From the IMG/VR virus record IMGVR_UViG_3300008267_000436, positions 1 through 22,333 of that record: DNA of 22,333 bases; one strand, written 5' to 3'. The notes beneath the pieces were generated by a model. The model was not told the origin of the DNA and did no database searches. It worked only from the letters and a program-made list of their open reading frames with translations. Below are positions 11,180-22,242 of the stretch, one piece after another. The stretch is from a virus. Within the stretch, counting starts at the first letter, position 1. Every line of letters begins with the position of its first letter. Both the position numbers and the translations under genes were made by a program.

Positions 11180-11479
11180 ATGCCATTTGAAAAAGGAGTA
11201 AGCGGCAACCCTGCGGGCAAACCAAAGGGAGCAGCAAACAAAACGACCAACAAGATTCGTGAGGCGTTCCAGAATCTCATTGAAGCCAACCTTGACAATA
11301 TGACCTTATGGCTCACACAGGTAGCTGCTGATGATCCGAAGGGCGCACTTGACCTGCTGAACAAGATGGCGGAGTACACAACACCCAAGCTTGCACGGGT
11401 GGAGAACTCCCACGAAGCAGCAGATGAACTCACCCAAATCAAAGTAGAGATTGTCCGTACTCCAAGTCAAGACAAGTGA
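11180..11479 (+). CDS. terS: Terminase small subunit (probable)
   Basis: A 99-residue protein starting MPFEKGVSGNPAGKPKGAAN, the G-x-S-G-N-P-x-G-(R/K)-P-K-G motif found at the N-terminus of many phage small terminase-like proteins. A helical region follows (NKIREAFQNLIEANL to LLNKMAEYTTPKL), ending in a polar tail. It recognises viral DNA and recruits the large subunit. The next gene, a clear terminase large subunit, overlaps its 3' end by 29 bases. The 22 bases before the ATG are A+T-rich (TTATTTAGTT at 11150-11159) with no TAnnTTTG promoter. Confidence 0.75.
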   Translation: MPFEKGVSGNPAGKPKGAANKTTNKIREAFQNLIEANLDNMTLWLTQVAADDPKGALDLLNKMAEYTTPKLARVENSHEAADELTQIKVEIVRTPSQDK

Positions 11480-12611
11480 ACTCTTTGAAAGGAACTACAC
11501 CGCACCTACACGGATAGTAGTTAATCAGGGAGGATCTCGTTCAGGTAAGACCTACTCCATCTTGCAGATGCTAATTGTCATCGCAATGCAAGAGAAGGGT
11601 AAGGTCTTTTCCATTGTGCGCAAGTCGCTGCCATCGCTCAAGATGACGGCCTACCGTGACTTCTTTGAGATACTCAACAAACTTGATTTGTACGATGAGT
11701 CACGCCACAACAAGAGCGACTACACCTACACGCTCAACGGCAACCTCTTTGAGTTCATTTCGCTTGACCAACCGCAGAAGAAGCGTGGAGCAAGACGTGA
11801 CTACCTATTCTGCAACGAGGCTAACGAACTATCTTGGGAGGACTTCTTCCAGCTCTTGGTTCGCACCACAGGCAAGATATGGATTGACTACAACCCATCA
11901 GATGCCTTCCACTGGATATACGACCGACTGCTAACCCGTGATGATGTAACGTACATACAAAGTACTTACAAAGACAATCCGTTCTTGGATGCCTCCATCG
12001 TAGCAGAGATTGAACGCCTCGCAACAACCGATGAGGACTACTGGCGTATCTACGGATTGGGTGAGCGTGGTATGAGCCGTGCCACCATCTTCCAATTCGG
12101 GATGAACGAGATACCTGCTGACGCAACCTTGCTTGCTTACGGGATGGACTTCGGCTACACCAACGACCCCACCTCGCTTGTTGCGGTGTACAAGTCGGGA
12201 GATAATCTGTACGCTGATGAACTCATCTACCAAACAGGACTCACAAACCCCGACATCAGCAACAGGCTAAAAGACCTAAACCTTGACAGGCGCACGGAAA
12301 TATTTGCGGACTCTGCTGAACCCAAATCCATTGAGGAGCTGCATCGTATGGGATGGAACGTAAAACCCACGCAGAAGGGCGCAGATAGCGTCATAGTGGG
12401 TATTGATGTACTGAAGCGACACAAGCTATTCGTTACCCCACGAAGCAGCAACCTAATCAAAGAGATGCAGAACTACAAGTGGACTGAAGACAAGAACGGA
12501 AACCTGCTGAACAAGCCCATAAATGCGTTTGACCACGCCATTGATGCAATGCGCTACGCAACATACAACAAGCTATCTAAGCCGAACTACGGCAGGTATG
12601 CTATACGCTAA
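11451..12611 (+). CDS. terL: Terminase large subunit
   Basis: A 386-residue packaging motor. ATPase: Walker A GGSRSGKT (27-34), Walker B with catalytic Glu YLFCNEANE (118-126, E123), and WIDYNPSD (144-151). RNase H-like nuclease: GMDFGYTNDPT (231-241, D233), FADSAEPKS (286-293, D287), and AFDHAIDAM (359-367). Length and order match the PBSX/Terminase_3 group. The start must be TTG at 11451: an in-frame TAG lies at 11445 and the first ATG is at residue 40, past Walker A. The TTG is inside terS, so translation is probably coupled to it. Confidence 0.95.
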   Translation: MSVLQVKTSELFERNYTAPTRIVVNQGGSRSGKTYSILQMLIVIAMQEKGKVFSIVRKSLPSLKMTAYRDFFEILNKLDLYDESRHNKSDYTYTLNGNLFEFISLDQPQKKRGARRDYLFCNEANELSWEDFFQLLVRTTGKIWIDYNPSDAFHWIYDRLLTRDDVTYIQSTYKDNPFLDASIVAEIERLATTDEDYWRIYGLGERGMSRATIFQFGMNEIPADATLLAYGMDFGYTNDPTSLVAVYKSGDNLYADELIYQTGLTNPDISNRLKDLNLDRRTEIFADSAEPKSIEELHRMGWNVKPTQKGADSVIVGIDVLKRHKLFVTPRSSNLIKEMQNYKWTEDKNGNLLNKPINAFDHAIDAMRYATYNKLSKPNYGRYAIR

Positions 12612-12633
12612 ATTCTAAAGGTTATTTTATTAG

Positions 12634-13350
12634 ATGGAACTGAAAGTAGTAGTACCAACCGACCTATCGGAGATCACCCTTGAGCAATACCAAAGGTTTG
12701 CTCGGCTTGAGGGTGATGAGGAGTTCCTTACCCACAAGATGCTGGAAATCTTCTGCGGCCTTCCGTTATCGCAGTTGCCCAATGTGCGAATCAAGGATGT
12801 GAGCCACATCACCAAACATATCCAAGATATGCTTGAGCAAAAGCCGAATCTAACCCCGAGTTTTAAACTTGGAGAAAATGAGTACGGCTTTATACCAGAG
12901 ATTGACAATATTACCTACGGTGAGTTCGTAGACCTTGACACCTACCTTCAGGATGTTCAGAGCCTGCATAAGACTATGGCGGTATTGTACCGACCCATCA
13001 CGTCAAAGGTCAAGAGCCGATATTTAATAGAGCCATACGAGTCAGCAAGCAAATATGCGGAGCTGATGAAGCAAGCCCCGATGGATGTAGTAATGGGTGC
13101 GGTGCTTTTTTTTTATCGTTTAGGGAACGAACTATTGCAAGCTACGATGAACTATTTGGAGGAGAACAAGACAACGAGTTCAGCCGCCAATCGCAGTTTA
13201 ACAAACGATGGGGATGGTATGCGACATTCTATCAGCTTGCTCAAGGAGATGTTAGAAGGCTATCCGAAATATCAAAACTTGAACTTCACGAGTGCCTTCA
13301 GTTCCTCACCTTTGAAAAGCAAAAGCAAGAAGTTGAAAACGACATCCTAA
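12634..13350 (+). CDS. Zero-frame product of a frameshifted gene; candidate tail assembly chaperone
   Basis: A 238-residue product. Residues 1-160 form the main body (MELKVVVPTDLSEITLEQYQ; GEFVDLDTYLQDVQSLHKTMAVLYRPI), largely helical, of a type I associate with unnamed Bacteroidota phage proteins. Near residue 157 the gene crosses a nine-T run (13106-13114), after which the -1 frame also stays open. In this frame the tail continues YRLGNELL, then becomes low-complexity and basic (SSSPLKSKSKKLKTTS). Two products from one start, in a gene between terminase and tail genes, is the pattern of G/GT tail chaperones. The assignment is inferred from that. Confidence 0.7.
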   Translation: MELKVVVPTDLSEITLEQYQRFARLEGDEEFLTHKMLEIFCGLPLSQLPNVRIKDVSHITKHIQDMLEQKPNLTPSFKLGENEYGFIPEIDNITYGEFVDLDTYLQDVQSLHKTMAVLYRPITSKVKSRYLIEPYESASKYAELMKQAPMDVVMGAVLFFYRLGNELLQATMNYLEENKTTSSAANRSLTNDGDGMRHSISLLKEMLEGYPKYQNLNFTSAFSSSPLKSKSKKLKTTS

Positions 13351-13367
13351 AGAAATCTATGAAATGA
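12634..13367 (+). CDS. -1 frameshift (GT-like) product, 244 aa, join 12634..13113 and 13113..13367
   Basis: If ribosomes slip back one base on T-TTT-TTT (13107-13113), the first 160 residues are joined to 84 more in the -1 frame, ending at a TGA at 13365-13367. The added part looks strongly protein-like: KRWGWYATFYQLAQGDVRRL, then LELHECLQFLTFEKQKQEVE and a Lys-rich end. This segment has no ATG of its own before its last few codons, so it needs the upstream start. Its TGA overlaps the next gene's ATG as ATGA, the usual junction here, while the zero-frame stop does not. The -1 extension is therefore very probably translated. Confidence 0.65.
13106..13130 (+). promoter_or_regulatory. Putative -1 frameshift site: T9 slippery run and hairpin
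   Basis: Nine Ts (13106-13114) are read as CTT TTT TTT TAT in the zero frame, giving the slippery heptamer T-TTT-TTT at 13107-13113. TCGTT (13116-13120), loop TAGGG, and AACGA (13126-13130) form a perfect 5-bp hairpin 2 bases after the heptamer; it is short and closer than the usual 5-9 base spacer. T9 could also promote polymerase slippage. Confidence 0.6.
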
Positions 13368-13831
13368 GGCAGTTTTACGACATCACCACCAAACTCAAGG
13401 ATACGCTTGAAGCACATAGCCAAGTCAACGTAGTCACCACAGGTGATCTATTTGACATTGATTTGAACAAGCAGACCATCTTCCCATTGAGCCACATCAT
13501 CGTAAACCAAGCGACCTTTGAAGGTCAGGTGGTACGGATGAGCGTAAGCCTCGTTTGCATGGATGTGGTTGATGACACAAAGGAAGACCCACGAGCGCAA
13601 CCAGAGCCTTTCTACGGCACTTCTAACGTACAAGACATACTCAACACCCAACTCGCAGTAATAAACGATGTGGTGCAAGAATTACGCAGAGGCACTTTGT
13701 ACTCTGACTTGTACCAATTAGATGGTAACCCAACCTGCACTCCGTTCTTGGAACGCTTTGAGAACCTGCTTGCTGGATGGACTGCTACGTTTGATGTGCT
13801 GCTTGCCAACACCGAAATCAGCGTTTGCTAA
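13364..13831 (+). CDS. Putative tail/connector protein, 155 aa
   Basis: Starts within ATGA, overlapping the stop of the frameshift product. The protein begins MRQFYDITTKLKDTLEAH, continues TTGDLFDIDLNKQTIFPLSH, and has an amphipathic segment VINDVVQELRRGTLYSDLYQL and an ERFENLLAGWTATFDV end. It resembles unnamed structural-module proteins of Bacteroidota phages. Its size, mixed alpha-beta pattern and place before a gp10-like gene would suit a tail terminator or head-tail completion protein, but no diagnostic motif is visible. It ends in a TAATG overlap with the next gene. Confidence 0.65.
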   Translation: MRQFYDITTKLKDTLEAHSQVNVVTTGDLFDIDLNKQTIFPLSHIIVNQATFEGQVVRMSVSLVCMDVVDDTKEDPRAQPEPFYGTSNVQDILNTQLAVINDVVQELRRGTLYSDLYQLDGNPTCTPFLERFENLLAGWTATFDVLLANTEISVC

Positions 13832-14364
13832 TGACACGGGAGGAGCGCATACAAGCGGTGCTTGATAAGTTCGGAAAATACGTTGTGCAGCAGGCGAGAG
13901 CAAACCTCACCCGTCAAAACAGGAACGTAAGTAAAGAGCTTTACAATAGCATCCAATGGAATGCTGAAGCCTCCAAGAGTGGCGAGTCGTTTACGGCATC
14001 ACTATCAATGCTTGACTATGGTCAGTATCAAGACAAGGGTGTGCGTGGTAAGATAGCCTCACCAATCAACACACGAGAAAGCCCATTTCGCTTCGGCACA
14101 GGCACAGGTCAAAAGGGTGGCCTTACCGCAGCCATACAAAAGTGGGTACGCTCAAGACGCATTCAGTTCCGCCAAGAGAACGGAAAATTTATGAGCTACG
14201 ATAGCACGGCATTCCTTATCGCAAGAAGCATATACCAAAAGGGAATACCTGCCACGTTCTTCTATTCACGCCCATTCAACATCGCATTTAAAAAGTTGCC
14301 TGCTGAATTAATAGAGGCATACGCACTTACCCCCGATGACTTTAAAGAATTTTTGAGAAAATGA
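13831..14364 (+). CDS. HK97 gp10-like tail/connector protein
   Basis: Start chosen at ATG 13831 because of the TAATG junction; a TTG two codons earlier is possible. The 177-residue protein has an N-terminal helix (KFGKYVVQQARANL), then a KELYNSIQW strand-turn region and LDYGQYQDKGVRG, the surface loop characteristic of HK97 gp10/neck-type proteins (L-x-Y-G-x-Y-Q-x-x-G). It ends with basic segments and a helix (KKLPAELIEAYALTPDDFKEF). These proteins act at the head-tail joint or tail completion. Fold assignment is by motif and context. Followed by an ATGA overlap. Confidence 0.6.
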   Translation: MTREERIQAVLDKFGKYVVQQARANLTRQNRNVSKELYNSIQWNAEASKSGESFTASLSMLDYGQYQDKGVRGKIASPINTRESPFRFGTGTGQKGGLTAAIQKWVRSRRIQFRQENGKFMSYDSTAFLIARSIYQKGIPATFFYSRPFNIAFKKLPAELIEAYALTPDDFKEFLRK

Positions 14365-15626
14365 GTATACCTGTTTCAGCGACTCCTGCGTCTATCGCTA
14401 CGGCTCGCAGCCCCATCTTCATCACGGGAAAGAACAACACGCTACCCAACGACTCGCTGGATGCGATGAGCGTGAACATCAGCTCATACACGGGAACACA
14501 AACGCCCGTAGTAAACCCGACCACCTACACGCTATCCAAGAACTACTCCATCAACGAGGTCATCAACTTTGAGGTGTCTGACCTGATCCGTGAGAAGTTT
14601 CAGCATCCATTCGGTAAGGCATTCATCACCGAGCCAAGCGCATCCGAAACAGGCGAAGCGGTATGGGTACGCAGAACAGGTGACTGGACTTATTCTAACA
14701 ACGGAGCAGCACCCGAAAGCGGATTAATTGGTACGGTTTACTTCTTGGCTCTTGATGGCTATAAGTCTTTAGGAGAACTCCAGAACGCAGGAGTCACTCA
14801 AGCAGGACTTGTTACTTCACGCCCATTCCAAGTGCTTGCAGGAAACTCGCAGAGCCTTGCGGTATCTTACAACACCTACTCAGGCGTTAACGGATTCACG
14901 ATTGAGATTAATGGTGTAGAATACTGGTTCTCGCTAAAGGATGAATTGGGATGGGCTAACACAACCACGACCTCTACGCAGATGGTCATCTACATTCCGA
15001 GTGGGGTAACCAACGTAGCAACATTCTTGGGCATAACACCTACCGATGATTACACCATCAACCTGCTTGTCAATAACGAGTGCATCAGCTACAATGACAG
15101 AGTGAAGGCTGATGGCGGAACGGTAGAAGCACTTGGCTGCTTATGCGAAGCGGTAGATGATCTTGGCGGTAATGATGACAAGGTAGCCTACGACTTTGAA
15201 GTGGTATGCGAGCCTAAGTACGACCCATACCTCATTCAGTTCGTAAACAAGTACGGGGTATCTGACTACCTGACGTTCTTCAAGAAGTCAACCGAGCAAG
15301 GTAACTTCACACAAGACCAATACCAAAAGAGCATCTATGCGGATGCGTATACGGATGTCAACTACGTGAACGGCAAATACCAATCGTTCAATATCAACTC
15401 TCGCAACACGCTAACGCTCAACACGGGCTTCGTGGATGAGTCGTATGGTGCTATTATGGAGGAGATCTTGATGAGCGAGAAGGTAGCCGTATACGAAGAT
15501 GGGCAATGGGTTGCTATCGTTCCGAATCGTGGAAGCATTGACTACCAGAAGTCGGTAAACGACAAGACCATCAACTACACGATGAGCTTTACCTATGCGT
15601 TTGACCAACGGATGCTTGTACGATGA
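14361..15626 (+). CDS. Large beta-rich structural protein, 421 aa (tail or baseplate)
   Basis: Coupled by ATGA to the genes on both sides, in the tail module. The sequence is rich in Thr, Ser, Asn, Gly and Tyr with alternating hydrophobics and few Lys/Arg clusters, typical of a beta-sandwich virion protein. Residues about 150-245 (from SRPFQVLAGNSQSLAV) look like an inserted domain. There is a cysteine cluster at about 253-258 (ALGCLCEA). The C-terminal third contains short aromatic motifs (YDPYLIQFVNKYGVSDYLTF). No signal peptide. I do not recognise a named family; a tail-tube or baseplate role is inferred from location. Confidence 0.6.
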   Translation: MSIPVSATPASIATARSPIFITGKNNTLPNDSLDAMSVNISSYTGTQTPVVNPTTYTLSKNYSINEVINFEVSDLIREKFQHPFGKAFITEPSASETGEAVWVRRTGDWTYSNNGAAPESGLIGTVYFLALDGYKSLGELQNAGVTQAGLVTSRPFQVLAGNSQSLAVSYNTYSGVNGFTIEINGVEYWFSLKDELGWANTTTTSTQMVIYIPSGVTNVATFLGITPTDDYTINLLVNNECISYNDRVKADGGTVEALGCLCEAVDDLGGNDDKVAYDFEVVCEPKYDPYLIQFVNKYGVSDYLTFFKKSTEQGNFTQDQYQKSIYADAYTDVNYVNGKYQSFNINSRNTLTLNTGFVDESYGAIMEEILMSEKVAVYEDGQWVAIVPNRGSIDYQKSVNDKTINYTMSFTYAFDQRMLVR

Positions 15627-17632
15627 ATAAGGTTGATATTTATGTCAATGGTCAACGGCTTGATGTATTCCAAGATGAGGAGATAAACCTCAACATCTCG
15701 GTGCAGAATGTTCAGGACATCAGCAAGGTGTTCACCGACTTCACGCAAGGGTTCACCATTCCTGCTACGCCAACGAATAACGCCATCTTCGGATACTACT
15801 ACCGCACCGATTTTAGTGGCACGTTTGATGCTCGCTTCCGCCAAGATGCGTTCATTGAAATCAACTCATTGCCGTTTCGCTCTGGCTCGGTAGAGCTTGA
15901 TGGTGTACAACTAAAGGGTACTGAACCATACGCCTACAACATTACGTTCTATGGCGGCTTGGTAAACCTTACTGATTTGTTTGGTGATGACTACCTGTAT
16001 GACTTAAACTTCAGCGCATACGACCACGAGTACACGGATGATGCAATCTTTGATCGCTTCACTACCGAGTACGACAATGCGTTCTTTTATCCGTTGATGA
16101 GTCCTGTAAAGAATTGGTTTTACAATTCAAGTAATAGTAGTCACGATGATTCAAATATAGCTTGGCATAGCCTAAGCGAAGCGCACGGAATTCACTACTA
16201 CGAGTTGAAGCCTGCGATGAAGGCATACGCCATCTTAGATGCGATAGAAGCAAAATACGGAATAACCTTTACGGGTTCATTCTTATCGGCTAACCCATTC
16301 GTAGACCTATCGCTATGGCTTCACCGCTTTGAGGGGTATATGTTTGAGTCGGGTAACGACATTGAATGGAAGCTCATTAACTTCAACCGAAACACAGGCA
16401 GCGGTAGCCAATTTAATCTGACCACCGAAACGTGGACAGTACCAGAGAGCAAGGAGTACGACCTTGACATCACGATGGCTAACGTAGACCAGAACTACGA
16501 ATTAGGTGTATTCCGCAATGGTGTGTTTGATTATTCGGTTTTAGTAGATGCACATCCTTCTTCATCGGTTACAAGCACGATGGAGAACTTGCTCTACACG
16601 GAGGGTGATACGATTCAATTATTCATCCGACCACAGGTAGCAGCATCTATGAACTACCAATGCACGGACTATTCAGGCATCAACTCTTTAGCAGGTGTTG
16701 AGTTCTCGGTAGACCAGACGCTTGCTGCGGTATATACCTTCACGGTCATAGTTACCGACCTAATGCCTGAAATTAAGGTAAGGGACTTTCTTGCTGGTAT
16801 CTTGAAGATGTACAACATGGTCATCGTACCTACCACATCTACCTCGTTCTTACTTCAGCCGTTGGATGATTGGTACGCAGCAGGAAGCGACAAGGACTAC
16901 CAGCAATACTTTGACATCACGGAGTACTCGGTAAACCGACCTCCGCTATTTAGGGAGATTGAGTTCAAATACCAAGACACGGAGCAGATACTCGGATTCC
17001 AATATCAAAAAGTAAACAATACTGGATTTGGTGACCTTCGCAACTTCTTTGCATTTGATGCAGAGGATTTTATTATTGAAGTCCCGTTTGAGTGTCCATT
17101 GTTTGAGAGGCTTACCGATTTAGACACAGGAGTATTAACCAACGTACTTGTTTACAAAAGCATTACGGAGAATACAAACGAGGATGGCACATTTAACAAA
17201 TACTTAGGTGCGCCTGTTGTTTTTTATGCTTCGTATGGTGATTACAACATCAGCTCCAATCCCGTTGCTTTTGTTAACTCGGACAATACAAGCAGTCGGC
17301 AGGTAGACTATTGTTGGTATGCTAATACATCAAATCTGCCCACCAGCGCAGGAGCATCGTACTCCACGTGCTTTGGTGCAGACATTGACCCATATCATTT
17401 GCAAAGCGTAAGCCGTAGTTTATACAACGAATACTGGAGCGACTACATCACCGATCTTTACAACGTAAGGCGTAGGCTCTTTCAGGTTGATGCGGTTTTA
17501 CCGCTTGGTGCTATGCTATCTATGAACCTCCAAAACGGAGTAATCTGGAACAACAACAAGTACATTGTCAATTCCGTGCAGGTGGGTTTGACTACGGGCA
17601 AAGCAACATTTGAACTCCTTAACGTAGTATGA
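15623..17632 (+). CDS. Large tail/baseplate protein, 669 aa
   Basis: ATGA-coupled to the gene before. It begins MNKVDIYVNGQRLDVFQDEE, then DFTQGFTIPATPTNNAIFGY and PFRSGSVELDGVQLKG, a start I associate with conserved structural proteins adjacent to tape-measure genes in Bacteroidota phages. The whole sequence is beta-rich, with many Asp, Tyr, Phe and Asn, and no coiled coils or membrane segments. The C-terminal end (QNGVIWNNNKYIVNSVQVGLTTG) looks like a hub or carbohydrate-binding-like beta region. Size and position before the tape measure favour a distal-tail, hub or receptor-facing role. Not proven. Confidence 0.6.
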   Translation: MNKVDIYVNGQRLDVFQDEEINLNISVQNVQDISKVFTDFTQGFTIPATPTNNAIFGYYYRTDFSGTFDARFRQDAFIEINSLPFRSGSVELDGVQLKGTEPYAYNITFYGGLVNLTDLFGDDYLYDLNFSAYDHEYTDDAIFDRFTTEYDNAFFYPLMSPVKNWFYNSSNSSHDDSNIAWHSLSEAHGIHYYELKPAMKAYAILDAIEAKYGITFTGSFLSANPFVDLSLWLHRFEGYMFESGNDIEWKLINFNRNTGSGSQFNLTTETWTVPESKEYDLDITMANVDQNYELGVFRNGVFDYSVLVDAHPSSSVTSTMENLLYTEGDTIQLFIRPQVAASMNYQCTDYSGINSLAGVEFSVDQTLAAVYTFTVIVTDLMPEIKVRDFLAGILKMYNMVIVPTTSTSFLLQPLDDWYAAGSDKDYQQYFDITEYSVNRPPLFREIEFKYQDTEQILGFQYQKVNNTGFGDLRNFFAFDAEDFIIEVPFECPLFERLTDLDTGVLTNVLVYKSITENTNEDGTFNKYLGAPVVFYASYGDYNISSNPVAFVNSDNTSSRQVDYCWYANTSNLPTSAGASYSTCFGADIDPYHLQSVSRSLYNEYWSDYITDLYNVRRRLFQVDAVLPLGAMLSMNLQNGVIWNNNKYIVNSVQVGLTTGKATFELLNVV

Positions 17633-17781
17633 AGCAGACGTATTTAGGTTATTTGATTGAACTCCTCAACTCGGATGAGTGGATTGGTGCAGGCGAGAAT
17701 ATAGAAATCGCCAAAGGCAAGCACAAACTACCCGAAGGATGGAACGAATATATTAAGTTGCAATGGCGGCAGTTGAAGTAA
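17629..17781 (+). CDS. Small protein between tail genes, 50 aa
   Basis: A 50-codon ORF that begins in an ATGA overlap with the 669-residue gene and ends 19 bases inside the tape-measure gene, so it fills the gap exactly. The protein (MKQTYLGYLIELLNSDEWIG at the start, then KLPEGWNEYIKLQWRQLK) is basic and helical with three tryptophans. It could be a small tail assembly factor, but has no recognised motif. The junction structure and amino-acid pattern support translation. Confidence 0.65.
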   Translation: MKQTYLGYLIELLNSDEWIGAGENIEIAKGKHKLPEGWNEYIKLQWRQLK

Positions 17782-19580
17782 TTGAGATTAAAGGCGATGC
17801 CTCCTCCGCTATTGCGGCACTTAAAGCCGTAGGCATTGAGGCACAGAAGACCCAAGAGAAAGCAACAGAGGCTAATGATGCTATCAAGGATGGCCTTGAG
17901 GCGTTAGACAAAAGGACAGGCGGAGCAGTATCTGCGTTCAAGAGTTTAGTTGGTGGGGTAAAGAGTGCGGTGTCTGCATTCACCACGCTAAAGGGAGCAA
18001 TCATTGCTACTGGTCTTGGAGCATTGCTTGTAGCAGTAACCTCGCTCGTAGCCTACTTCAAAGAAACGGAACGAGGCGGTGATGCTTTAGCCGTTGTAAT
18101 GGGTGCAATCGGTGGCGCAGTACGCAAGCTTACTGATGTACTCGTTACGCTTGGAGAAACGCTCTTTAATGCCTTCAGCGATCCGAAGCAAGCGTTGATT
18201 GACTTCGGCAACGCCATCAAAGAAAACATCACCAACCGAGTAGAGGGGATGCTTGAGCTTCTGCCTGCTCTGGGTAAAGCCATCAGCCTTGCATTTAGTG
18301 GTGAGTTCAAGGCAGCAGGAAAGGTTGCTGCTGATGCGGTAGGCAAGGTAACGCTTGGCGTTGAGAACGTAACCGATAAGGTAGGTGGTGCTATTGATGC
18401 GCTTAAGGAGTTGGGCAAGTCAGCGATTGCCGCAGGCCGTGAGGGAGCAAGAGTCGCACGACTACTAAACGATGCAGAAGATGCCGAACGTGCGCTTATC
18501 GTACAACGAGCCAAAGCAAACAAGCAGATTCAAGAGGCACGCTTCATTGCTGATGACTTAACCAAAAGCACGGAGGAGCGTATCGCTGCCGTGCAGCGAG
18601 CAGCAGCACTTGAAGAAGAAGTAGCCAACGCTGAAATCAAAACGCAGAAGCTACGCCTTACAGCACTCAAGGCACAGGTAGCAATAGGCGAGGCATCCGA
18701 AGACCAACTTGTACAGGTAGCAGAAGCCGAAGCCCGTGTTCAGGAATTAGAAACGGCAAGCATCGCTCGCAAGCGCAGACTCGGTACGGAGGTAAAAAGC
18801 CTACGTGCAGAGGAGAAGGCACGACTTGATGAGCAGATAAAGGCAGAAGAAGAACTCCGCAAGGTTCAAGATGAAGCGCAGTCAGCATTCCTTGCAAGCC
18901 AAAGCCAAAAGCTTGACCAAGCGTATGACCTATTGCTCACGGATCAGCAGCGTGAGATAAACGCAGTTCGTGACAAATACTTTGCGTTGCTTCAGTTGGA
19001 TGAGCTATCGGCCGAGCAGCGTCTTGCCCTTGAGCAAAAGCAGAGCGATGAAATCCTTGCCATCAACAAGAAGACTGCTGATGCTCAAAAGGCTATTGAC
19101 AAGGCTACGGCAGATGCTAAGGCGGCAATGATGAACCAAAGCATAGATGCGGTTCAAGGTGCGCTTACTGCTTTGTTTGGCGAGAGCAAGGCGGTAGCAT
19201 CAGCAAACGTGCTTATTGATGCAGCGCAAGCAGCAGTCGGTATATTCAAAAGCAGCACTTCACTACCAGAACCATTTGGCTCAATCAACAGGGGTATTCA
19301 GTTGGCGGCTCTTGCTGCAACGGCTGCTGCATCTATCCGCAACATCAATAGCGCAAAGCCCTCAAGCTCATCGGCTGCACCAAGCGTACCTACTGCCGTT
19401 CCTACGGCTGCATCACAAGCACCGCAGTTTAACGTGGTAGGGCAATCAGGAATCAACCAACTTGCACAAAGCATAGGTGGTCAGTTTCAGCAGCCAATCC
19501 GTGCGTATGTGGTCAGCCAAGATGTAAGCACCGCACAACAACTGCAACGCCAACGAGTAAGAACCGCAACATTCGGATAA
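17763..19580 (+). CDS. Tail tape-measure protein
   Basis: A 605-residue Ala/Lys/Glu-rich, mostly helical protein. It has Ala/Gly-rich N-terminal helices, a hydrophobic segment (about 79-99, AIIATGLGALLVAVTSLVAY) of the kind found in tape measures, then a long heptad-patterned coiled coil (about 225-460) and a Ser/Pro/Ala/Gln-rich C-terminus. Tape measures set tail length at roughly 1.5 angstrom per residue, which would suggest a tail near 90 nm if all of it spans the tube. It is the longest coiled-coil protein in the structural module and follows tail genes, which supports the call. Stop/start TAATG with the protease gene. Confidence 0.75.
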   Translation: MAAVEVIEIKGDASSAIAALKAVGIEAQKTQEKATEANDAIKDGLEALDKRTGGAVSAFKSLVGGVKSAVSAFTTLKGAIIATGLGALLVAVTSLVAYFKETERGGDALAVVMGAIGGAVRKLTDVLVTLGETLFNAFSDPKQALIDFGNAIKENITNRVEGMLELLPALGKAISLAFSGEFKAAGKVAADAVGKVTLGVENVTDKVGGAIDALKELGKSAIAAGREGARVARLLNDAEDAERALIVQRAKANKQIQEARFIADDLTKSTEERIAAVQRAAALEEEVANAEIKTQKLRLTALKAQVAIGEASEDQLVQVAEAEARVQELETASIARKRRLGTEVKSLRAEEKARLDEQIKAEEELRKVQDEAQSAFLASQSQKLDQAYDLLLTDQQREINAVRDKYFALLQLDELSAEQRLALEQKQSDEILAINKKTADAQKAIDKATADAKAAMMNQSIDAVQGALTALFGESKAVASANVLIDAAQAAVGIFKSSTSLPEPFGSINRGIQLAALAATAAASIRNINSAKPSSSSAAPSVPTAVPTAASQAPQFNVVGQSGINQLAQSIGGQFQQPIRAYVVSQDVSTAQQLQRQRVRTATFG

Positions 19581-20512
19581 TGAAACTTATTGAACTAATC
19601 TTAGATGAAACGATGGCACTCACGGGGATTGATGCCATCAGCCTCGTAGAGCATCCTGCTATTGAGGAGGACTTTATTGCACTCAAATCCGAGCGTGTAG
19701 AGTTCGCTGCACAGGATAACGAGAAGCGTATCCTAATGGGAGCAGCACTCGTACCCAATAAACCCATCTACCGAGTGAATGGTGAGGAGGAGTTCTACGT
19801 TTACTTCAGCCAAGACACCATTCGCAAAGCGAGTGAGATGTTCTTCCAGAAGGCTAAGCAGAACAATGCTACGCTTGAACACGAGGTAGGCATTGATGGA
19901 CTCACGGTTGTAGAGTCGTGGATCATTGAGGATGAGGTTCACGACAAGAGCAAGAAGTACGGATTTGAATTGCCTGTTGGTACGTGGATGGTTTCCATGA
20001 AGGTCAACAACCCAGAGATTTGGGATGGCTTCGTAAAGACTGGCAAGGTCAAGGGATTCTCTATTGAGGGCTACTTCGTTGACAAGATGAACTTCGCCAA
20101 GCAGGAGATGGAGCGCCTTGAGGAGCAAGAGGCGGCTTTGCTGCTATCGCAAATCGTAGCCATCATCAAGAAGGATGGTCGCAAGAAGTCAGGCAAGCGT
20201 ATGGAATTGGAATCCTACTCGGACTACCCACAAGCGGTACGCTCTAACGCCAAGCGTGGTATCGTGCTTAACGAGAAGAACGGCAACAAATGTGCTACGC
20301 CTGTTGGTAAGGTGAGAGCGCAGCAGTTGGCGCAAGGCAAACCTGTGAGCGTAGAAACCATCACCCGTATGTACTCGTACCTATCAAGAGCCGAAGAATA
20401 CTACGATGAGAACGACACTACCGCCTGCGGCACGATTAGCTACCTTCTATGGGGTGGCCTTGCTGCAAAGCGTTGGGCTGAATCTAAACTTAAAGAATTG
20501 GGCAAATTATGA
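19580..20512 (+). CDS. XkdF-like prohead protease with C-terminal phage domain
   Basis: A 310-residue protein. Residues 1-170 resemble the XkdF/S78-type serine protease: GIDAISLVEHPAI (16-28), LMGAALVPNKPIYR (52-65), NNATLEHEVG (95-104, candidate catalytic H101) and KVKGFSIEGYF (156-166, candidate nucleophile S161). A charged helical linker (172-205) leads to a separate domain (211-308: SDYPQAVRSNAKRG, KCATPVGKVRAQQLA, TACGTISYLLWGGLAAKRWA) with C238 and C283. That domain is common in phage head proteins but has no known function to me. The protease part would mature the prohead, cleaving scaffold. Its place before scaffold and capsid genes fits. Confidence 0.75.
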   Translation: MKLIELILDETMALTGIDAISLVEHPAIEEDFIALKSERVEFAAQDNEKRILMGAALVPNKPIYRVNGEEEFYVYFSQDTIRKASEMFFQKAKQNNATLEHEVGIDGLTVVESWIIEDEVHDKSKKYGFELPVGTWMVSMKVNNPEIWDGFVKTGKVKGFSIEGYFVDKMNFAKQEMERLEEQEAALLLSQIVAIIKKDGRKKSGKRMELESYSDYPQAVRSNAKRGIVLNEKNGNKCATPVGKVRAQQLAQGKPVSVETITRMYSYLSRAEEYYDENDTTACGTISYLLWGGLAAKRWAESKLKELGKL

Positions 20513-20670
20513 TACGACCACAAAAGCTACCCGTATCCTCACCAAGAGGCGGCAACAGAGGATGCCTATGCAAGGATAATACCTACTCACGTAAATGCTG
20601 CGATGGCTCTCTTCCTGCTCAGGGCATCGGCTCATTGACTGGTCAAGGTGATGTAGAACTCAACCCATAA
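20509..20670 (+). CDS. Small Cys-rich phage peptide, 53 aa
   Basis: ATGA-coupled to the protease gene. The protein contains SPRGGNRGCLCKDNTYSRKC, followed by CDGSLPAQGIGSL, with C19, C21, C30 and C31. Peptides with C-L-C-x-D-x-x-Y-S-x-x-C-C-(D/E)-G and a Q-G-I-G end are familiar from phage structural modules, where they sit near capsid genes. Four close cysteines suggest a zinc-binding knuckle or disulphide pair. It may be a minor head component. No function is known to me. Confidence 0.7.
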   Translation: MIRPQKLPVSSPRGGNRGCLCKDNTYSRKCCDGSLPAQGIGSLTGQGDVELNP

Positions 20671-20709
20671 AATGTAACAAACAACCAACCCTCTTTTATT
20701 TAGTTAGAT

Positions 20710-21303
20710 ATGAAAGCAAATAATATCCTTAACCGCATCCTTGCCGAACTTAGCTCCATTCGTGAGGTTAAGTTTGAGCAAATGACCCTTGAGAACGGTG
20801 CTGTTCTTGAGGCTGAAGTGTTTGAAGCAGGAAACGAAGTATTTGTCGTTAGTGGCGAAGACCGTGTTCCTGCTCCTGTTGGTGAGCATCTCCTTGCTGA
20901 TGGCCGTGTATTGGTTATCGCTGAAGAAGGTGTAATCGCTGAAATTAAAGAGAAGGCTGAAGAAGTAGAGGAGAAGGTAGAGATTGAAGTTGAGGCTTCA
21001 GTTGAAGAACCTGCTACCGAGCTTGCTGAAGTTGAAGTAAAAGAAGAAGCTCCTGCCGTTGCAGCCATCGTGGAGAAAGTCCTTGAGGAGATTGCAATGA
21101 TGCGTGAGGAGATGAAAGCAATGCGTGAGGAGATGGGCGGCTACGCCAAGAAGGAAGAGATGGCTGCCGTTAAAGCTGAGCTGTCTGCTGCACCTGCTGC
21201 TAAGCCCATCAAACACAACCCCGAAAAAAAGCAAGTCAACAAGGTAGAATTTAACCGCCCTGCAAAGGCGATTGACCGAGTCCTTGCACGTCTTAACAAA
21301 TAA
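20710..21303 (+). CDS. Putative capsid scaffolding protein
   Basis: A 197-residue protein directly upstream of the capsid gene. Residues 1-80 are compact (FEQMTLENGAVLEAEVFEAG, GEHLLADGRVLVIAEEG), 80-115 are a Glu/Val-rich acidic stretch, 118-165 are coiled coil (EEIAMMREEMKAMREEMGGY), and the last 35 are basic (AKPIKHNPEKKQ...RVLARLNK). An acidic coiled coil with a basic C-terminal helix is the general plan of scaffolding proteins, which bind capsid by the C-terminus and are cleaved by the prohead protease. It is preceded by 39 bases with a TTATTTAGTT motif (20696-20705) and no TAnnTTTG promoter. Confidence 0.6.
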   Translation: MKANNILNRILAELSSIREVKFEQMTLENGAVLEAEVFEAGNEVFVVSGEDRVPAPVGEHLLADGRVLVIAEEGVIAEIKEKAEEVEEKVEIEVEASVEEPATELAEVEVKEEAPAVAAIVEKVLEEIAMMREEMKAMREEMGGYAKKEEMAAVKAELSAAPAAKPIKHNPEKKQVNKVEFNRPAKAIDRVLARLNK

Positions 21304-21315
21304 TAAAACCCGAAA

Positions 21316-22242
21316 ATGGCTACGACCACTTCAATCACTACTTCGTACGCTGGACAATTTGCCTCCAAGTACATCTCTGCTGCTCTGTTGAGCGCAGACA
21401 CGCTGGACAAGGGACTCATTGAGATCCTTCCCAACGTAAACTTCAAGACCACCCTGCAAAAGGTTAACACCAACGACATCGTAAAAGACGCTACTTGCGA
21501 CTTTGACGCTACGTCTACCTTGACCTTGACCGACCGTGTTCTTGAGGTTGAACCGTTCCAAGTTAACCTGCAACTCTGCAAGAAAGACTACTACGATTCT
21601 TGGATCGGTGGTCAAATGGGCTTCTCTGCTTACGATAGCATCCCTGCTTCTTTTGCTGACTTCCTTATCGCCCACGTTGCTGCCAAGACTGCCCAAAAGA
21701 TTGAGCAGAACATCTGGAATGGTAACGCTGCTTCTGCTGGTGAGTTCTCTGGCTTCCTGTCTTTGATGGCTGCTGACTCTGACGTTATTGACGTAACTGC
21801 TACTACCGTAACGGCTGCTAACGTAATTACCGAGCTTGGCAAGGTTGTAGACGCTATCCCTGCTGCCCTTTACGGCAAGCAGGACTTGACCATCTACGTT
21901 CCGCAAAACGTGGCTAAAGCCTACGTGCGTGCGCTTGGTGGCTTCGGTGCTTCAGGTCTTGGTGCTAATGGTGTTGAAAACAAAGGCACGATGTGGTACG
22001 GTGACCAACCCTTGTACTTTGACGGAATCCGTGTAGCTATGGTTAACGGTCTTCCTTCTAACAAGATGGTTGCTGCTGAATCAAGCAACCTTTTCTTCGG
22101 ATCAGGACTCCTGAATGAGAGAAACGAAGTGCGCCTGTTGGACATGTCGGACCTCGACGGTAGCGATAATATTCGTGTGATCTTGCGCTTCTTCGCAGGT
22201 GTTCAGTACGGTATCGGAACTGACGTAGTTCTCTACTCTTAA
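21316..22242 (+). CDS. Major capsid protein (probable)
   Basis: A 308-residue protein placed after protease and scaffold genes and before a strong terminator. It has the composition of HK97-like capsid proteins from Bacteroidota phages: a Thr/Ser-rich N-terminus (MATTTSITTSYAGQF), an early helix (FASKYISAALLSADTL), then mixed alpha-beta with DFLIAHVAAKTAQKIEQNIW, a typical spine-helix-like segment, and a C-terminal beta region (RVILRFFAGVQYGIGTDVVL). Codon choice is more uniform (GCT, GGT, CGT, AAC) than in other genes, as for a highly translated gene. Fold assignment is by context and pattern. Confidence 0.8.
   Translation: MATTTSITTSYAGQFASKYISAALLSADTLDKGLIEILPNVNFKTTLQKVNTNDIVKDATCDFDATSTLTLTDRVLEVEPFQVNLQLCKKDYYDSWIGGQMGFSAYDSIPASFADFLIAHVAAKTAQKIEQNIWNGNAASAGEFSGFLSLMAADSDVIDVTATTVTAANVITELGKVVDAIPAALYGKQDLTIYVPQNVAKAYVRALGGFGASGLGANGVENKGTMWYGDQPLYFDGIRVAMVNGLPSNKMVAAESSNLFFGSGLLNERNEVRLLDMSDLDGSDNIRVILRFFAGVQYGIGTDVVLYS

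Follow-up and report, generated by a model that had tools for sequence, protein, structure and literature searches.

A nearly invariant run of nine T residues joins two coding frames of a gene next to the terminase in a family of phages

Introduction

Does the gene that follows the terminase in this viral contig encode one protein or two? The window, by which we mean the whole stretch of 22,333 nucleotides that was analysed, contains a run of nine T residues (T9) after which two reading frames stay open. It is well known that assembly genes of phages can carry programmed frame transitions, and a first, sequence-only reading of this DNA proposed such a transition here. We looked at the site itself, at related loci in other phages and at the genes around it. 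The features that we refer to are as follows.

11451..12611, + strand: terminase large subunit, directly upstream of the recoded gene
12634..13113, + strand: shared N-terminal domain of both predicted products, 160 aa (phrog_32199, unknown function)
13106..13114, + strand: T9, the putative slippage site, with the in-frame heptamer T TTT TTT at 13107-13113
13113..13367, + strand: -1 frame C-terminal extension, 84 aa plus TGA; the fused product would have 244 aa
13114..13350, + strand: zero-frame C-terminal tail; the product of standard decoding has 238 aa in all
13115..13350, + strand: predicted dual-coding region, with purifying selection on both frames
13116..13130, + strand: 6-bp hairpin after T9, present in the window only and not conserved
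13364..13831, + strand: next gene, 155 aa, starting within the ATGA that it forms with the -1 frame TGA
17763..19580, + strand: tape measure protein (phrog_20660, E 7.7e-8)

Two open frames after the T run

T9 is the only T run of at least seven bases in the window, and the zero-frame codons across it read CTT TTT TTT TAT. The zero frame is an ORF from 12634 to 13350 (238 aa), and the -1 frame, free of stops from 12972 on, ends with the TGA at 13365-13367, so both frames do continue past the run as the sequence-only reading had described, the zero frame to 13350 and the -1 frame to 13367. The extension starts LSFRERTIASYDELF and includes NKRWGWYATFYQLAQGD, with a WGWY motif within it. It had been said to lack a start of its own, which we confirmed: the sole start codon is the ATG at 13359, three codons before the stop. 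We considered an independent start for the extension and ruled it out because no start codon occurs before 13359. The TGA of the -1 frame forms an ATGA junction with the next gene, also as first proposed, and the stretch read in both frames comes to about 236 bases where about 238 had been estimated.

Conservation of the site among relatives

Relatives were collected from IMG/VR by searching with the zero-frame protein, with the extension and with alignments of either one, which gave several hundred loci. The search with the N domain was made without the extension, so that search is not biased towards genes that carry it. We counted the 447 loci that have both parts. Many of these are nearly identical to one another or come from one contig that was retrieved twice, and collapsing them at 80% nucleotide identity left 84 clusters. 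One locus with a shortened N domain (L296) was excluded from the cluster statistics; it also has T9.

The run was T9 in 442 of the 447 loci, T10 in three and T8 in two, and it was never shorter than T8. The in-frame T TTT TTT T is invariant in 84/84 clusters, which share less than 80% nucleotide identity with one another, and the in-frame heptamer T TTT TTT is present in all loci with a run of any of these three lengths. In 446 of the loci the extension lies in the -1 frame. The original claim of a programmed -1 transition joining two coding regions is upheld by this persistence of site and frame relation in hundreds of loci, which excludes chance as the source of the observation. What we found, in short, is a conserved slippery site followed by a conserved frame with no start of its own. 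The T8 and T10 loci deserve a closer look, since a run of either length that merged the two frames would have spoken against recoding. Such homologues do exist, and their frame relation is still -1; in the T10 loci the extra T sits at the edge of the run and does not alter it, so the two frames stay separate.

The sole exception is a locus (L421, positions 1-420) where the zero frame runs straight into the extension. The merged frame seems to come from an indel some 50 nt past T9, near a G5 run and at the edge of the contig; it may be an error of the contig edge or a merger that exists in nature.

The same T9 and the same frames are found in two isolated phages, the Nonlabens phages P12024L and P12024S, at 27-30% protein identity. 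Their genes (40/41 and 38/39, phrog_32199) were deposited as two hypothetical proteins each. They differ from the window in that the zero-frame tail extends only 74 nt past T9.

Codon choice at the site is unlike that in the rest of the genes. Of 682 Phe codons outside the site in these genes, 222 are TTC, but the wobble positions at the site are always T. The first Leu codon of the -1 frame is TTR in 80/80 cases at the site compared with 36% elsewhere. Judged by these codons, the site is conserved at the nucleotide level.

Single-ORF counterparts

Duneviridae and other flavophages encode the shared domain and the extension together, in a single ORF without interruption (259-301 aa; phrog_25418). 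Examples from Duneviridae are Flavobacterium phages FPSV-F7 (QCW20227) and laban6-1 (gp17) and Cellulophaga phage Ingeline_1 (gp05), and further carriers are Polaribacter phage Leef_1, Bacteroides phage BT-TP2 and two phages labelled Microcystis. Siphovirus morphology has been described for Ingeline and Leef (PMC8776804). The Ingeline_1 gene sits between the adaptor and tape measure genes.

We aligned a profile of the 84 conceptual -1 products with a profile of six single-ORF proteins using hhalign, which gave a probability of 98.5 and an E value of 1.4e-15 over 233 columns that span the junction. The -1 product is thus homologous from end to end with proteins that need no frameshift, and it follows from this alignment that it corresponds to a real protein. 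The single-ORF counterparts lend indirect support to the making of a trans-frame protein. We saw no evident short isoform in the single-ORF relatives. After FF the T9 family has no residue other than Leu or Phe, whereas the single-ORF proteins vary there.

Flavobacterium phage 6H (NC_021867, 10047-10927) has its phrog_25418 gene split in two frames and annotated as a shorter gene. We rejected a frameshift in this phage because the gene is intact as one ORF in near-identical relatives, among them FPSV-F7 (293 aa); a local indel or a sequencing error in 6H is the most likely cause of the split. As for the two phages labelled Microcystis (MZ447863 and MZ570427), the single-ORF gene is otherwise found in Bacteroidetes phages, and the host label may be wrong.

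Ribosomal or transcriptional slippage

On the comparative evidence we are highly confident that recoding itself takes place at T9. By what means the frame would slip is close to an even question, as slippage by the ribosome and slippage by RNA polymerase both fit, and we treat the two as choices of mechanism inside the best explanation and not as rivals to recoding. For the earlier claim of -1 slippage, this means that a conserved -1 transition with dual coding stands, while a ribosomal origin is about as likely as a transcriptional one.

Ribosomal -1 frameshifting on T TTT TTT with no strong stimulator has, in our estimate, an even chance of being the mechanism. The heptamer has the X XXY YYZ form and is kept in frame at all T8, T9 and T10 loci, and the known phage G/GT pairs use -1 ribosomal shifting at a low level (PMC5009743). 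However, E. coli ribosomes shift modestly on U UUU UUU, less than on A AAA AAG (PMC5009743), no alternative slippery heptamer was found in the 84 clusters of relatives, and the run nearly always exceeds the seven bases that a ribosome would need.

For transcriptional slippage, which we put just short of even, RNA polymerase would add one U (or drop two) at T9 and the ribosomes would not slip. Avoidance of A/T runs in genes becomes evident at a length of nine in a large share of bacterial genomes, which has been attributed to transcriptional slippage, and runs of about nine are used for such slippage in IS elements and in Shigella mxiE (PMC1088944). Nine is also the length found in 442/447 loci here, with nothing below T8. 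C in place of the eighth T was never seen. With TTA or TTG as the -1 codon, that substitution would alter neither protein and T TTT TTC would remain, so its absence speaks for a requirement for the run as such. The restriction of the residue after FF to Leu or Phe and the lack of a downstream RNA structure signal point in the same direction. On the other side, the lambda-type chaperones use ribosomal slippage, and T TTT TTT is itself a -1 heptamer that the T8 loci keep in frame. The outer T's can also be explained in part by the amino acids needed in each frame; since this could account for some of the invariance, we leave the mechanism near even. The likeness to mxiE and the IS elements lies in a run of about nine and a longer product made through slippage (PMC1088944), while the gene here belongs to a phage structural module and its slippage is a candidate only.

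Downstream stimulatory structures are common at ribosomal -1 sites, although they are not obligatory. A 5-bp hairpin had been reported after the run; the window does have a hairpin, of 6 bp (13116-13121 pairing with 13125-13130), but it is not conserved, and homologues give no structure signal at its place (mean z -0.12). Likewise, 60-nt windows in 84-85 representatives, folded with a model that excludes pseudoknots, gave no signal of a conserved structure upstream or downstream of T9 (mean z near 0).

Taken further, the polymerase alternative would mean that the proportion of the two isoforms of a phage assembly protein is set by RNA polymerase slipping at a near-invariant T9, and not by the ribosome, with both tails read from the same roughly 200 nt, two frames under selection, and cousins that encode only the long form as one ORF. 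We offer this tentatively and would bet somewhat against it.

Selection on both frames

If only the -1 fusion mattered, the zero-frame tail would be a by-product that is open by accident. To see how long an accidental frame should be, we computed the open length to be expected for a sequence that encodes the -1 protein with N-domain codon usage. After T9 the zero frame is open for a mean of 202 nt (median 189 nt) against about 50 expected, which is about four times longer, and in 75 of the 84 representatives fewer than about 5% of the simulations attain the observed length.

Substitution at fourfold-degenerate sites was measured in 93 independent pairs of genes that are 80-95% identical. The change at these sites was 0.329 in the N domain. 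It fell to 0.023 over the 42 nt that adjoin T9 (13115-13156 in the window, and the homologous positions), was 0.08-0.13 in the rest of the overlap (up to 0.132), and rose again to 0.243 beyond the zero-frame stop. An analysis of third positions agrees with the drop in the overlap. As the rate recovers after the zero-frame stop, the constraint ends where the zero frame ends. These rates argue that the zero-frame product is also under selection and that the dual coding is real.

The accidental by-product is accordingly improbable in our judgement, given the excess open length and the point at which the constraint stops, although two observations speak for it: the distal part of the zero-frame tail has a low-confidence structure prediction, and the zero frame ends early in the Nonlabens phages. 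A break at T9 from sequencing error, or a true indel that split one gene, would be in keeping with error-prone homopolymers, with the broken gene of phage 6H and with the apparent indel in L421, but it is refuted for the family by the same T9 and frame relation in hundreds of contigs and in isolated phages, and we give it practically no weight.

The hyper-conservation of the 42 nt after T9 is an observation in its own right. Double coding may suffice to account for it, and a cis-acting element is also possible. Four bases after T9 lies a nearly invariant TTTAG motif, which places a stop in the +1 frame.

A possible role in tail assembly

Recoding at T9 remains our preferred reading, and the full form of it is that two proteins share the start at 12634. 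Decoded in the standard way, the gene would give the 238-aa protein, and a slip into the -1 frame, by ribosome or RNA polymerase, would give the 244-aa protein with its different, helical C-terminus of 84 aa. We infer that the slip would occur at a useful efficiency in infected cells, and that the two isoforms would cooperate, as lambda G/GT do, in the assembly of the tail (or the neck and tail), with the short form the abundant one. We give this explanation as a whole, recoding into two isoforms together with the tail-assembly role, a probability of roughly 0.6.

The likeness to G/GT is that a small protein is extended in the -1 frame and that its gene belongs to a phage structural module with a tape measure gene. 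With lambda G/GT, P2 E/E' and HK97 gp13/14 the gene shares a single start, a -1 shift, a small C-terminal extension and a place in a structural module with a tape measure gene; it differs from them in its homopolymer site, its position after the terminase and the lack of a significant sequence match. The zero frame also runs further past the site, about 190-230 nt in most T9 members compared with about 20 nt in lambda and P2 (the lambda G and T annotations overlap by 19 nt, and in P2 the shift is at 19685 and E ends at 19705). A G/GT chaperone would be expected to have its short form in excess, to bind the tape measure protein and to be absent from the virion.

The tail assembly chaperone pair that the first reading had inferred is no more than a candidate here, as there is no significant match to a chaperone family, the gene lies directly after the terminase, not between the major tail protein and the tape measure as G/GT genes do, and its single-ORF cousins lack an evident short form. 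Pfam gave nothing above cut-off for either part, chaperone families included; one member matched Phage_TAC_7 weakly, below cut-off (E 0.043). Comparison by hhalign with nine known chaperones, including lambda G/T, P2 E, Mu gp41, HK97 gp13, TP901-1 and A118, had low power and gave no significant match. PHROGs returned only families of unknown function and weak matches to phrog_166 ("tail protein"). In the structure prediction the N domain is confident, and so is the extension, which is all-helical (mean pLDDT 86). Searching the PDB by sequence and by fold found no relative, and the fold lists are dominated by a long helix and prove nothing; one protein annotated as a chaperone was matched by fold at E 0.21. 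A G/GT-like working of the pair is our best guess from analogy, and we do not claim membership in a chaperone family.

We found no description of this site or family in the literature that we searched. What is unusual here is the combination of a nearly invariant homopolymer site, a long overlap with measurable selection on two frames, and natural single-ORF counterparts. The 84 divergent clusters and their single-ORF outgroups make a clean natural data set for how recoding sites persist and for how a gene passes between single-ORF and recoded forms. Selection can be measured on both frames of the long stretch that would be dual-coding, unlike in the short overlap of lambda and P2 as annotated. 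For annotation, the two hypothetical proteins after the terminase in T9 phages would be one recoded gene.

Gene order and hosts

The recoded gene lies upstream of an HK97 gp10-like gene (a weak match) and the rest of the structural module. It had been called unusually far upstream of the tape measure gene, and the distance is indeed about 4.4 kb. A homologue of the next gene follows the same gene pair in Nonlabens phage P12024L; homology with the downstream neighbour of the gene in the single-ORF phages was not supported. The gene order in the window (11451-22242) is itself unusual: terminase, recoded gene, tail genes with the tape measure, an XkdF-like protease and a probable capsid gene. We identified no portal gene in the window.

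Phages with the T9 gene probably infect Bacteroidetes. Looking for prophages, we found the gene on only one Bacteroidetes MAG contig among genome contigs and, in a second search, in one of 395 genomes of that phylum, and this near-absence from Bacteroidetes genomes suggests that these are probably mostly lytic phages.
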